Source: Pseudomonas sp. GM79 (GTDB lineage: Bacteria > Pseudomonadota > Gammaproteobacteria > Pseudomonadales > Pseudomonadaceae). From it: 64,000 nt of DNA. Of the stretch, positions 54,175 through 60,949 are shown piece by piece. Position 1 is the stretch's first letter, and every line of letters begins with the position of its first letter. Made by a program: the position numbers and the translations under genes. Below the pieces are notes generated by a model. The model searched no databases. It saw only the letters and a program-made list of their open reading frames with translations, and was not told where the DNA came from. The stretch spans positions 1-64,000 of the forward strand of contig NZ_AKJE01000066.1 of the NCBI RefSeq assembly GCF_000282495.1, given 5' to 3'.

Positions 54175-55023
54175 ATGTTTAGATCAATTCCCATGCATGT
54201 TGTCGGACTGGCCTTGGTGCTGGTCGCCGCTGCCGGTTGTTCGTCGAAGAAGGCCGCCATCTATGAGCATGAGAACTTCGACGACTCAGGAACGTTTTCG
54301 CGCAGCTACCCGGTGACCGATGCGCAGACCTGCGAAGCAGCCCGTCGGGCTTTGCTCAGCCAGGGTTACATCATCACCAGCGCCGATCCGAAGCTGGTCA
54401 GTGGTCACAAGAGCTTCCAGCAGACTGGCGAGACCCACATGGAGATCAGCTTCAACGTGGTCTGTGCCGATGACGGCAGCGAAGGGCATCACGCGACCAT
54501 GTTCGCCAATGCGCTGCAGGACCGTTATGCGCTGAAGAAGACCAATAACTCCGCCAGCCTCGGTGTTGGTGTGTTGGGCTCGGTATCGATGCCAATCGGC
54601 TCGTCCGACGACTCGATGGTCAAGGTCGCCAGTGAAACCGTGTCCTCGGCCAAGTTCTACGAGCGTTTCTTTGCCCTGGTCGAGTTGTTCCTTCCGCCGG
54701 AAGCGAAGAAGGCGGCACACATTACCGAGAAGCCGAAGACTGATCTGGGTGTGCCCGAAGCCAAGGCTGCGCCGGCTCAGTTGGCGCCGACTTCGACCCC
54801 GGCGGCAGAACCTGCGCCTGCTCCAGCGCCGGTAGCTGCACCAACCGAAACCGCTCCTGCTGCTTCAGAGCCTGTTGTGCCACCTGCCGAAACAGCGCCG
54901 ATTACCCCGGCGCAGAGCAGCGAGCCGAGTTCGTCCACCGAAACAGTATCTCCACCGGCGGATTCAAGCACCATGCCGGCACCGACCGAGCCAATTACGG
55001 CCATGCCTGTCTCCGGCCAGTAA
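54175..55023 (+). CDS. DUF2242 lipoprotein with a proline/alanine-rich tail
   Basis: A 282-residue lipoprotein. The signal ends with the lipobox AAGC (C22) followed by SSKK. The globular DUF2242 domain spans about residues 30-180 (FDDSGTFSRSYPVTDAQTCE...ALLSQGYIITSADPKLVSG), a compact beta-rich domain of unknown role. The last 90 residues are a disordered Pro/Ala/Thr/Glu tail (APTSTPAAEPAPAPAPVAA), perhaps a spacer through the peptidoglycan. It stands between ppiD (terminated) and a tiny gene. Family function is not established. Confidence 0.85.
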   Translation: MFRSIPMHVVGLALVLVAAAGCSSKKAAIYEHENFDDSGTFSRSYPVTDAQTCEAARRALLSQGYIITSADPKLVSGHKSFQQTGETHMEISFNVVCADDGSEGHHATMFANALQDRYALKKTNNSASLGVGVLGSVSMPIGSSDDSMVKVASETVSSAKFYERFFALVELFLPPEAKKAAHITEKPKTDLGVPEAKAAPAQLAPTSTPAAEPAPAPAPVAAPTETAPAASEPVVPPAETAPITPAQSSEPSSSTETVSPPADSSTMPAPTEPITAMPVSGQ

Positions 55024-55409: not shown

Positions 55410-56450
55410 TTACGCGGATTGGCGATGACTGCGGCGAAACTCGCCGGGGGTCTGGCCGTTCCAGCGTTTGAACGCCCGTTGAAAGGCTTCGGCTGAGGCA
55501 AAACCCAGCAGGTAGGCGATTTCCCCAAACGCCAGTTCAGTGTCGCGGATGTAGGTCATGGCGAGGTCGCGGCGTGTGTCGTTGAGAATTGCACGAAACT
55601 GCGTGCCTTCCTCGGCGAGTTTGCGACGCAAGGTCCAGGTTGGCAGCTTCAGGCGTGCCGCCACTTCTTCCAGGTCGGGTTCCCGACCACCATTGAGCAA
55701 CGGCCCCAGTAACTGAGTGATGCGTTCACGCAGGCTGCGGGTGCGTGTCAGTTGCTCCAGTTCCCGTTCACACAGTTGCAGCAGGAGCCGCCAGGTGCTC
55801 GGGCAGTGTTGCGGGTTGCGCTGGGCGAGGCTCTCCAGGCTCAGGCGCAGTTGATTCTGTTCGGCGCCAAACTGAATCGGACAATCCCCCAGCACGGCGT
55901 AGGCCTCACGGTAATCCGGCGCCTGGAATTCGATCTCGATCCGTTCGGCGCGTAGCGGGGCAGGGCTTACGCTGGACAATTGCTGCAACCAGCCGGCGAT
56001 GATGGAATCCACCACGAAGCGGTTGTAGGCATTGTAGGGACTGATCGAATAGAACCGCAGCCAAGCGCCTTGGGCGTCTTCATGAAAGCTCGATTGGCCG
56101 CGATAGTTGGAGCCATACAGCGCTTCAAAGCGAATCAGGCAGCGCGCCGCTTCCCGCACGGTGGGGGCCTGGGCGGCGGTGACTCCGGCCAGGCCTGCCT
56201 GGCTCAGACGGCTGAGCTGGCCCATGCGCAAACCCAGTGCCGGGTCGTCAGTCAGTTGAATGGCCCCGTGACCCAGGCGCATGTAGCGCGGGATCGAGAG
56301 GCGGGCGCCGGCCTCGGCCAGTCGCGCGGCGTCGAGGCCGTACTGTTCGAGCAGCGGTTGTGGGTCCAGGCCATGGCTGCGCACGGCGTCGGCCAGGCTA
56401 TGGACGAAGCCCACCGACAAATCCCCGAGGCGCATCGGCTGCGGTTTCAT
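55410..56450 (-). CDS. AraC family transcriptional regulator
   Basis: A 346-residue regulator of the AraC/XylS family with an N-terminal arabinose-binding-like (Arabinose_bd/DUF) domain (GFVHSLADAVRSHGLDPQPLL) and a C-terminal double helix-turn-helix (LEEVAARLKLPTWTLRRKLA, then IAYLLGFASAEAFQRAFKRW). This layout is that of the OruR/ArgR-like group. It starts 5 nt after the nitrilase-like gene's stop on the same strand, so it is co-transcribed with it. In PAO1 an AraC gene, a nitrilase-like gene and fadH1 occur in the same order (PA3094-PA3092, from memory), which suggests that it regulates the trio. The effector is unknown. Confidence 0.88.
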   Translation of the reverse strand: MKPQPMRLGDLSVGFVHSLADAVRSHGLDPQPLLEQYGLDAARLAEAGARLSIPRYMRLGHGAIQLTDDPALGLRMGQLSRLSQAGLAGVTAAQAPTVREAARCLIRFEALYGSNYRGQSSFHEDAQGAWLRFYSISPYNAYNRFVVDSIIAGWLQQLSSVSPAPLRAERIEIEFQAPDYREAYAVLGDCPIQFGAEQNQLRLSLESLAQRNPQHCPSTWRLLLQLCERELEQLTRTRSLRERITQLLGPLLNGGREPDLEEVAARLKLPTWTLRRKLAEEGTQFRAILNDTRRDLAMTYIRDTELAFGEIAYLLGFASAEAFQRAFKRWNGQTPGEFRRSHRQSA

Positions 56451-56454
56451 CGGC

Positions 56455-57585
56455 TTACAGCCAGAGGTTCAGCAAACGCGCGCCCCGGGCATCGCCGTCG
56501 GCGAATTGTTGCCCGTTGCTGCTGAGGAAGCTTTGACCGGCGCTGCTCTTGTCCCAGAACTGACCGCGCAGGAACACGCTCATGCCGGCGATGGCCTGGC
56601 TGCCGGACGGTTGGGCAATCAGCGTCAACCGATGCCAAGCCTGACCTTCACTGAGTTCGCCAGCCTTGAGACTAACAGAGCTCGGCGTGGACTGGCCTTT
56701 GTAGCCGCGCCACGGTTGATCCCAAGACCCACGCCCGACGACGAACGCCGGGACCGCCACCAGTTGCGCGCCTTGATCGTCGAGTTTGCGATAGTTTTCC
56801 GGATACCAACTGTCGCTGCCGATCAACACGCCCAAGCGTCCGGCCGGTGTGTCGACGACGTTGACCGTGTGTTCGGAATTGGCATCGACGGTGTCGTGAC
56901 CAGCGAAAGTCGGGTGCATTTGCCGCTGCGGCTGGCCGATCGGCAAACCGTCGCGACCGAACACTACGCTGCTGTTGTACAGGGCACCGCGGCCAATCTT
57001 CAGGGTGCCATCGCTGACACTCGGCTCGGGCAACACGATGGAACCCGCCACCAGAGTGATGTGGAATTCTTTCGCCAAGCCGCCGAACAGCGCCTGGTAA
57101 CTCTTGGCCATTTTCTTGGCTTTCATCCGCAAGTGCGCGTCGTCGAGACGATTGCCGCCCTCGGCGCTGATCAGGGCGCGGATGAACTGCAACGGGTTGC
57201 TCACCGCCAGCCAGTTCATAGCCTCCTTGAGGGTGGTGGCCTGGTACAACTCGTCTTTCTCGCCGCTGACCATCAGCCAGGTGCCGATATGTTCAGGCAG
57301 TACGACGATGGTCTTTTCATTCAGCAGGCCTTGGTCCTGAGCCTTCTGCAAATAAGCCGCGAGCTTGCGGTGCAGGCGTTCGGGGCTTTGATAGTCGGTG
57401 GGGAACAGCTCGGGCTGGATACCCAGCAGATTGCCGCGATCGGCGGGAGTGCCCTGATCGACCGCGAGACTGATGCGCAAGTCCGACAGGTAATGACCCA
57501 CCGGACGGTCCGCGGCCCACATGGCGTAGGTCGTGAGGGCGGCGATCAACGCCATGGAGAAAGTCAGGTACAAAAGTTTGCGCAT
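56455..57585 (-). CDS. Nitrilase-superfamily-like protein with altered catalytic residues
   Basis: A 376-residue protein with an N-terminal membrane helix or uncleaved signal (YLTFSMALIAALTTYAMWA). The rest follows the carbon-nitrogen hydrolase fold: TIVVLPEHIG with the expected Glu (E98), then GRDGLPIGQPQRQMHPT and GRLGVLIGSDSWYPENYR. Aligned by eye with the usual Glu-Lys-Cys triad, the Lys position is Q222 and the Cys position is G256. The core motifs around them are retained. So it is probably non-catalytic, perhaps a sensor or adaptor. It lies upstream of, and nearly touching, the AraC gene, and divergent from fadH. Alternative: the alignment is shifted and another residue serves, which structure prediction could test. 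Confidence 0.75.
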   Translation of the reverse strand: MRKLLYLTFSMALIAALTTYAMWAADRPVGHYLSDLRISLAVDQGTPADRGNLLGIQPELFPTDYQSPERLHRKLAAYLQKAQDQGLLNEKTIVVLPEHIGTWLMVSGEKDELYQATTLKEAMNWLAVSNPLQFIRALISAEGGNRLDDAHLRMKAKKMAKSYQALFGGLAKEFHITLVAGSIVLPEPSVSDGTLKIGRGALYNSSVVFGRDGLPIGQPQRQMHPTFAGHDTVDANSEHTVNVVDTPAGRLGVLIGSDSWYPENYRKLDDQGAQLVAVPAFVVGRGSWDQPWRGYKGQSTPSSVSLKAGELSEGQAWHRLTLIAQPSGSQAIAGMSVFLRGQFWDKSSAGQSFLSSNGQQFADGDARGARLLNLWL

Positions 57586-59833
<2,248 letters not shown>

Positions 59834-59845
59834 TACGCATAACTC

Positions 59846-59978
59846 TGTGGCGAGGGAGCTTGCTCCCGCTGGAGGCCGAAGGACTCCCTCTATCAGCGAT
59901 GATGTAGTGTCAGGTTAATCAACGTCGCTGATTCTGTGGCTGCTGCGCAGCCAAGCGGGAGCAAGCTCCCTCGCCACA
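59846..59978. repeat. REPIN of a third family (GTGGCGAGGGAGCTTGCTCCCGCT)
   Basis: Arms TGTGGCGAGGGAGCTTGCTCCCGCT at 59846-59870 and the exact complement at 59954-59978 are 83 nt apart. A different family from the others in the window, lying between fadH and the D-cysteine desulfhydrase gene. Confidence 0.9.
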
Positions 59979-60022
59979 AGTCTGCTGCTAAGATACCGGC
60001 TCTTTACCCCGAGCCGGCATCA

Positions 60023-60949
60023 ATGCTTTCCCCTCCAACAGACTGGCTACCCCAAGCCCCCCTCGAACCCCTTCACCTCGACTGGCTCACCACTGCCGGC
60101 ATCGACGTCGCGATCCTGCGTCTGGACCAGATCGACCCGCTGATCAGCGGCAACAAGTGGTTCAAACTCATCGAACACCTCAAAGCCGCAGACCAGAGCG
60201 GCGCCCAAGGCATCATCAGTCTGGGTGGTGCCCATTCCAACCATCTCCATGCGCTGGCGGCGGCGGGCAAACGCTTCGGTTTCACCACCGTCGGCCTGCT
60301 GCGCGGGCATCCGCAAGACACCCCGACGGTAAAGGACTTGCAGGCGTTCGGCATGCACTTGCATTGGTTGGGTTATGGCGGTTATCGAGCGCGGCACGAG
60401 CCAGGCTTCTGGGTGTCATGGCGGGAGCAATACCCCGAGCTACATCCTGTACCGGAAGGTGGTGGCGGCTTGCCTGGGGCGAAGGGCTGCGGGCAATTGG
60501 TGACTCTGGCCTGCGAGCAATTGAGCGGTCTGGGCTGGAGCCACTACGACGGCTGGTGGCTGGCCTGCGGAACAGGTACCACTCTGGCCGGCCTGGTTCT
60601 GGCCGAGGCGGGCGAACATCCGGTGTATGGCGCGCTGGCGGTGCCTGACGATCATGGCGTGGCGCAGCAGGTCGAGATGATTGTGCAGGAAGCCGGACTG
60701 ATCGATCCCGCCTATGAACTGCTGGACGCCAGCCGTGGCGGTTTTGCCAAAGTCGATCCGCCGTTGCTTGCGTTCATCGAGCAGACCGAACAGGCCAGTG
60801 GCATTCCTCTCGAGCCGCTGTACACCGGCAAAGCGCTGCTGGCGCTCAAGCAACAAATCGAGGCGGGTAAGTTTGCCCGGGGCACGAGGCTGATCTTCAT
60901 CCATACCGGTGGCTTGCAGGGGCGTCGGGGTTTCAGTTCACAAACCTGA
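60023..60949 (+). CDS. D-cysteine desulfhydrase / ACC deaminase family PLP enzyme
   Basis: A PLP-dependent enzyme of the D-cysteine desulfhydrase/1-aminocyclopropane-1-carboxylate deaminase family, fold type II. The 308 residues show the PLP lysine K45 in SGNKWFKL, the GGAHSNHLHALAAAG phosphate/substrate loop, and GTGTTLAGL for the PLP phosphate. Strong YJF-type hallmarks of true ACC deaminase (long N-terminal, about 338 residues) are missing, so D-cysteine or a related D-amino acid is likelier. The ATG at 60023 is used; the upstream in-frame region (59936) overlaps a REPIN. Confidence 0.85.
   Translation: MLSPPTDWLPQAPLEPLHLDWLTTAGIDVAILRLDQIDPLISGNKWFKLIEHLKAADQSGAQGIISLGGAHSNHLHALAAAGKRFGFTTVGLLRGHPQDTPTVKDLQAFGMHLHWLGYGGYRARHEPGFWVSWREQYPELHPVPEGGGGLPGAKGCGQLVTLACEQLSGLGWSHYDGWWLACGTGTTLAGLVLAEAGEHPVYGALAVPDDHGVAQQVEMIVQEAGLIDPAYELLDASRGGFAKVDPPLLAFIEQTEQASGIPLEPLYTGKALLALKQQIEAGKFARGTRLIFIHTGGLQGRRGFSSQT

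Follow-up and report, generated by a model that had tools for sequence, protein, structure and literature searches.

nit of Pseudomonas sp. GM79, a predicted pseudoenzyme of the CN-hydrolase fold beside an AraC regulator gene and fadH

The gene nit lies in a stretch of 64,000 nucleotides of Pseudomonas sp. GM79 (the window) and is predicted to encode a former amidase of the CN-hydrolase fold that is anchored in the inner membrane, probably faces the periplasm and has been kept for non-catalytic binding or scaffolding. We give this reading a probability of roughly 0.55; such a role is the most likely one because the catalytic residues are gone, selection at the protein level remains and several residues in what was once the active-site loop are fixed. 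The ancestor would have been an amidase-type enzyme with a Glu-Lys-Glu-Cys site; Lys and Cys are missing in the lineage of the window, and the second Glu is missing in the window protein as well. The retained pocket (Q222, G256, D258, W260 and P262, fixed in close relatives) may bind a ligand or a partner without turnover. Translational coupling probably links the production of nit to that of the AraC regulator, and the AraC-fadH circuit does not seem to require nit. The features are listed in Table 1.

Table 1. Features of the nit locus, in positions of the window
Feature	Position	Strand	Basis or remark
AraC-family regulator gene (PF12625 + HTH_18)	55410..56450	-	Starts 4 nt after the nit stop; probably same operon
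nit, nitrilase-like pseudoenzyme gene (predicted)	56455..57585	-	ORF with ATG start, 376 aa; CN-hydrolase homologue
G256 codon, nucleophile Cys position	56818..56820	-	G in 116/116 close homologues
G229 codon, second-Glu position	56899..56901	-	E229 invariant in 11 full-triad homologues
Q222 codon, catalytic Lys position	56920..56922	-	Q in 116/116 close homologues
E98 codon, retained catalytic-type Glu	57292..57294	-	E in 196/220 aligned homologues
N-terminal hydrophobic anchor, about residues 4-22	57520..57576	-	Hydropathy; MRK precedes the stretch; N-in/C-out predicted
Conserved promoter element GATCAATAAGTTGTCAGTTACGGTCATTGAG upstream of fadH	57670..57700	+	Probable AraC operator (predicted)
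fadH, 2,4-dienoyl-CoA reductase type (Oxidored_FMN + Pyr_redox_2)	57782..59833	+	Divergent from nit; the ATG at 57794 is a possible true start

Fold, active-site positions and membrane anchor

The nit protein belongs to the CN-hydrolase homologous superfamily: the Pfam CN_hydrolase profile PF00795 matched it with 48.2 bits (curated cut-off, 23.2), and at E values of up to 1 the same profile matched 30 of 37 diverse members of the family. An AlphaFold2 model of the window protein, calculated with 42 near relatives, had a mean pLDDT of 46, and the pocket and the fold are assigned here from sequence. Searches of Pfam, NCBIfam and PADLOC assigned the family no function other than that of a CN hydrolase, and no NCBIfam equivalog cut-off was reached (best match, 31.2 bits versus 500).

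In a phmmer alignment to PDB entry 6mg6, the nit segments QRQMH and LIGSDSWYPE stood opposite YRKMH and MVCWDQWYPE, which places Q222 at the Lys position and G256 at the Cys position. With a profile of 11 homologues that have the full triad, the Lys, the second Glu and the Cys aligned with those of nitrilase 3wuy. E98 was assigned by the VVLPE motif and its invariance in these 11 proteins, not by structural alignment. The window protein retains the Glu of the Glu-Lys-Cys triad, and Q222 and G256 replace Lys and Cys; it contains no cysteine at all, and no Lys is found within 3 residues of position 222. The second conserved Glu is replaced as well, by G229 (Glu persists there in 45 of 116 close relatives). 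From the alignments and the absence of cysteine, nit is a CN-hydrolase homologue that lacks three of the four catalytic positions (Lys, second Glu and Cys). The window protein is predicted to be a pseudoenzyme, and hydrolysis by it would be absent. An earlier reading of the DNA letters alone (here, the sequence-only reading) had proposed that E98 is kept and that Q222 and G256 occupy the Lys and Cys positions, and this is confirmed.

Compared with amidases of the CN-hydrolase/nitrilase superfamily (N-carbamoylputrescine amidase, PDB 5h8i-5h8l; 6mg6), nit shows sequence homology that spans the Lys and Cys motifs and extends further, and it retains the Glu and the Cys-loop pattern D-x-W-Y-P. It differs from them by an extra N-terminal anchor and by having Q222, G229 and G256 where they have Lys, the second Glu and Cys. 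This anchor, which the sequence-only reading had also postulated, is predicted as a hydrophobic stretch with a 17-residue Kyte-Doolittle maximum of 1.65, a modest value within the range of 1.5 to 2.8 found in 15 homologues, and the topology is a prediction from hydropathy. A comparable N-terminal stretch is present in relatives from another class. Since the stretch comes after MRK, an N-in/C-out anchor with a periplasmic domain is predicted, and the nit domain is probably on the periplasmic side. If so, direct contact with cytosolic FadH or AraC would be impossible.

The apolipoprotein N-acyltransferase Lnt, a membrane protein with a multispan membrane domain, also has a nitrilase-type domain in the periplasm. 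Like that of Lnt, the CN-hydrolase domain of nit is predicted to be attached to the membrane, probably on the periplasmic side; unlike Lnt, nit has a single N-terminal hydrophobic stretch and has lost the triad. nit as an Lnt was rejected, with a TIGR00546 match of 12 bits versus a cut-off of 132.9.

Distribution, residue states and selection

Homologues of nit were found in 219 of 298 genomes of Pseudomonadaceae (E values of up to 1e-20), and the ORF is therefore not due to chance. A class-wide search (E values of up to 1e-10) yielded matches in Pseudomonadaceae only (2/369), and a phylum-wide profile search gave 20 matches in 398 genomes, of which 16 were from Pseudomonadaceae, 2 were weak generic nitrilases (G732 and G855) and 2 were full-length relatives (G944 and G967). 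No relative was found on plasmids with one full-triad protein as the query, and none was found in a search of viral contigs.

We aligned 220 proteins including that of the window; they came from two source collections, so that some species may be duplicated. The residues at positions 98, 222 and 256 were E-Q-G in 131 proteins, E-K-G in 25, E-K-C in 18, D-Q-S in 13, E-H-G in 6 and E-R-G in 6; another 12 states accounted for the remaining 21. Glu98 was missing in 24 proteins. Lengths ranged from 306 to the 380s of residues, and the short proteins had no Cys loop and had also lost some of the C-terminal half. Close homologues, those 70% or more identical to the window protein over residues 24 to 215, numbered 116. 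All of them were E-Q-G and 113 had no cysteine, and position 229 varied among them (Glu in 45, Gln in 45, Gly in 16 and others in 10). E98, D258, S259, W260 and P262 were invariant in 43 close relatives.

The full triad Glu-Lys-Cys was kept in 18 of the 220 proteins, each with exactly one cysteine, C256. araC lies behind nit in all 18, none of which is among the six loci without araC, so that the full triad occurs in orthologues at this very locus. Inactivity is thus not inherent in the family. The sequence-only reading had described nit as a conserved pseudoenzyme and had named full-triad orthologues elsewhere in the clade as evidence to the contrary. Such orthologues exist in the family, at the same locus, but not in the lineage of the window, where the description holds (E-Q-G in 116/116, with purifying selection). 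The full-triad proteins of Pseudomonadaceae, like the 11 full-triad proteins among the 17 relatives found in another class, share with nit the anchor, the motifs GNLLGIQP...DY and VVLPEHIGTWL and a C-terminal N-x-W-L. They differ from nit in combining E98 with K222 and the single C256, and the 11 aligned Pseudomonadaceae proteins also have E229.

A tree was calculated from residues 24 to 215 without column 98, with 107 rows comprising representatives and 15 of the 17 proteins from the other class; L220 and L222 were left off on account of their very long branches. Cys256 changed at least 9 times if direction is disregarded and was lost 11 times if it was never regained, counts that are approximate because 36 of the 103 inner branches had weak support. 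A recent single loss is seen in L155, which has Ser beside the Cys of L127 and L154.

Two side observations concern eroded members. In 15 short homologues (L192, L193, L203, L205 and 11 others) a Cys is found at position 257, one after the lost nucleophile, and the WYP segment is missing in those displayed. In genus g17 (L124, L196, L198 and L208) nit stayed, both araC and fadH are gone from its flanks, and E98 is changed to Asp.

Selection was measured on 300 pairs drawn from the same 51 loci for each gene; pairs with a dN of at least 0.5 (ungapped misregistration) or a dS of up to 0.1 were dropped. dN/dS was 0.102 for nit (278 pairs), 0.054 for araC (247 pairs) and 0.039 for fadH (300 pairs), and an out-of-frame control with nit shifted by one base gave 1.71 (150 pairs). 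nit is under purifying selection. Within the gene, residues 24 to 110 were the most constrained, with 0.05, and the Cys loop had 0.12 (400 pairs). In the 11 full-triad proteins (overall, 0.33) the Cys loop was the second most constrained of five regions (0.28), behind residues 24 to 110 (0.21); in E-Q-G proteins near the window it was the fourth (0.11). This hints mildly that the loop is still in use as an active site in proteins with a complete triad, with codon bias hampering the comparison of the groups. The codons of the eroded positions vary: among 125 proteins, Q222 was CAG in 95 and CAA in 30, and G256 was GGC in 116, GGT in 7, GGG in 1 and GGN in 1. As these proteins were chosen for their E-Q-G state, only the codon variation is informative; the codons change and the residues do not, and therefore the sites mutate while the residues are held.

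nit is dispensable: it was missing in 11 of the 103 sampled genomes of the window's genus, all of which have araC. Together with its dN/dS, the highest among the three genes, and with the several lineages that have lost the Cys loop and shrunk to about 306 to 345 aa, this would fit a slowly decaying amidase relic that is present mostly because its loss has yet to happen. Such decay is unlikely, if the least unlikely of the alternatives, given a dN/dS of only 0.10 overall and 0.05 at its lowest, the retention of Q222 and G256 in every close relative despite varying codons, and the lack of internal stops among the matches listed.

The invariance of E98, D258, S259, W260 and P262 could also mean that nit is still an enzyme, with altered chemistry carried by E98 and other residues of the pocket. 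This ranks behind decay and appears improbable, since three of the four catalytic positions are gone, no cysteine is left, and related lineages lose E98 too. S259 is not a replacement nucleophile, because it is nearly invariant in the 11 full-triad proteins as well.

Relatives in another class

A search with the full-triad profile detected full-length relatives in the same phylum in another class. These 17 proteins were E-K-E-C in 11 cases, E-K-E-G in 1 and Q-E-G preceded by Gly or Ala in 5, and from these eroded states the replacements of Lys by Gln and of Cys by Gly arose independently in that class. Each replacement is a single-base change in the genetic code, and mutational ease may therefore explain the parallel.

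In one family of the other class, the nit-type gene directly follows a gene for an MDR-type reductase in 15/15 loci (including L255:5998-8174, L256:5989-8147 and L260-L272), with the triad intact or eroded alike. The reductase was called by PF16884 and PF00107 in 2 loci and by at least 60% identity to one of these two in the rest. FadH is a double-bond reductase too, and reductase neighbours in both classes are suggestive of a shared unsaturated ligand. A double-bond reductase as a general neighbour was not confirmed: none was recognised among 10 ORFs around both loci of a second family of that class.

These relatives allow a wider reading, in which the job of the whole family is independent of catalysis. 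All members would be membrane-anchored periplasmic binders or scaffolds built on an amidase fold; Glu-Lys-Glu-Cys would have been discarded repeatedly (Lys to Gln and Cys to Gly in two classes) with the N-terminal half, the anchor and the C-terminal tail kept, and the neighbouring double-bond reductases would point to the shared unsaturated ligand. We consider this quite improbable; it is made less likely by the Cys loop, which proteins with a complete triad preserve comparatively better.

The locus and the fadH promoter element

The name fadH was assigned from the Oxidored_FMN and Pyr_redox_2 domain pair, which we take to denote this enzyme; the best NCBIfam match of the araC product was QhpR, below its cut-off. 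The neighbours of nit in the window are a divergent pair of an OYE-type 2,4-dienoyl-CoA reductase gene and its likely regulator. The arrangement claimed at the outset, with araC adjoining nit and fadH facing it, was found. Beyond the window, across the 219 nit loci, araC lies on the same strand, at -20 to +9 nt downstream of nit, in 213 (its start extrapolated from the alignment), and 6 fetched stretches are without araC. A divergent fadH lies no more than 600 nt away in 173 loci and at 999 and 1480 nt in 2; in 44 it is outside the stretch or absent, some of these stretches being short. The trio named in the sequence-only reading is common but not obligatory, with nit absent from 11/103 genomes of the genus. 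The tight coupling of nit and araC is real, and in the 213/213 loci that hold both genes it may reflect a functional link not captured here.

Matches to AraC (E values of up to 1e-75) were found in 274 of the 298 genomes: 213 genomes had both nit and AraC, 6 had nit only, 61 had AraC only and 18 had neither. The nit-only genomes (G010, G017, G033, G039, G044 and G056) are all without fadH as well (E values of up to 1e-100). Of the 61 AraC-only genomes, 11 belong to the window's genus and 50 to genera g5, g7 and g18, whose weaker AraC matches may come from a protein other than the orthologue. A search for fadH in 35 selected genomes (E values of up to 1e-100) detected it in 24 and not in 11; its presence agreed with that of AraC in 29/29 of those with an AraC result.

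Of the 11 genomes without nit in the window's genus, 8 had their locus fetched (all but G232, G261 and G281), and araC and fadH were direct divergent neighbours in 8/8. The family profile revealed no nit in these eight loci at E values of up to 1. In the four nit-only loci that were fetched (L124, L230, L231 and L232), araC and fadH are absent; a homologue of the window gene at 59936-60949 lies within about 1 to 2 kb, which marks the place as the same one.

The gap between nit and fadH contains an element with the consensus GATCAATAA-N-TTGTCA-N-TT-N4-TCATTGAG. Of 175 loci that contain both araC and fadH, 172 had its pattern at some place (exceptions, L126, L141 and L219), as did all eight nit-minus loci. 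The pattern was absent from the 4 nit-only loci, from 10 loci of the other class and from the 38 nit-araC loci where fadH was not found. fadH was at least 1 kb away from nit or on another contig in 15 checked genomes (about 140 kb away in G238), and the element was upstream of fadH in 15/15; 14 of these genomes lie behind the 38 loci, and the other is G282, with fadH at 1 kb. In the more distant genera g18, g5 and g7 it was upstream of fadH in 0/3. The genome of the window has one perfect site and two sites with two mismatches, and a reversed control gave none. The simplest reading is that the element would be the AraC operator of fadH, with nit outside that unit. That nit accompanies araC, fadH and the element wherever they occur was contradicted in 8/8 nit-minus loci; nit is separable from all three, and it is an optional third gene between the AraC-fadH divergent pair.

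Several observations concern the surroundings of the three genes. The nit-fadH gap (57586-57781) is a recurrent insertion place. In L068:1215-5796 an outer-membrane efflux gene adjoins nit. A DUF2242 gene with a lipobox-like N terminus (54175-55023) lies beside araC in the window and also near araC in many close relatives.

The sequence-only reading had proposed that nit, by sensing a ligand or acting as a protein partner, could control FadH or the AraC regulator, and through the latter fadH. The close nit-araC spacing in all 213 loci and the divergent fadH within 600 nt in 173 would be in keeping with this. The idea is nevertheless as improbable as a family-wide job: araC, fadH and the element persist without nit in all eight fetched loci, AraC matches occur without nit in 61/298 genomes (50 of them the weaker matches in g5, g7 and g18), six genomes have nit and neither araC nor fadH, and nit is predicted to be on the periplasmic side. 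Control of FadH or AraC is unsupported, and the eight nit-minus loci and six nit-only genomes make the locus explicable without it; when the genes are apart, the element tracks fadH (15/15) and not nit-araC (0/38). That the nit ORF acts chiefly in cis, its translation as a leader being coupled to the expression of araC, would account for the stop-to-start distances in the same 213 loci but is very improbable, given strong amino-acid-level selection that peaks at residues 24 to 110, far from the junction, and the survival of nit without araC in six genomes.

The trio may correspond to PA3092-PA3094 of Pseudomonas aeruginosa, as the sequence-only reading suggested. No open-access paper naming PA3093 was found, nor one describing a pseudoenzyme within the nitrilase superfamily or the carbon-nitrogen hydrolases. 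A published role for a nit-type gene was likewise not found in the open-access literature, the fadH papers being judged by title and the start of the abstract. PA3094, treated as a transcription factor, is reported to bind its predicted sites in EMSA and to activate lecA (PMC13086498), and a text search of the main text of that paper gave no mention of fadH. Passages of two other papers mention fadH1 expression and do not mention the nit gene (PMC12147183 and PMC6147739).

Non-catalytic binding or scaffolding by a probably periplasmic former amidase remains our preferred reading for nit. The AraC-operator-fadH unit, with its proposed target site, is set apart from nit as a gene merely travelling along. 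nit itself offers a natural series in one orthologous gene at one locus, from an intact site through loss of the Cys only to loss of the whole catalytic loop, and this series is a good test case for why bacteria retain enzymes that no longer catalyse.
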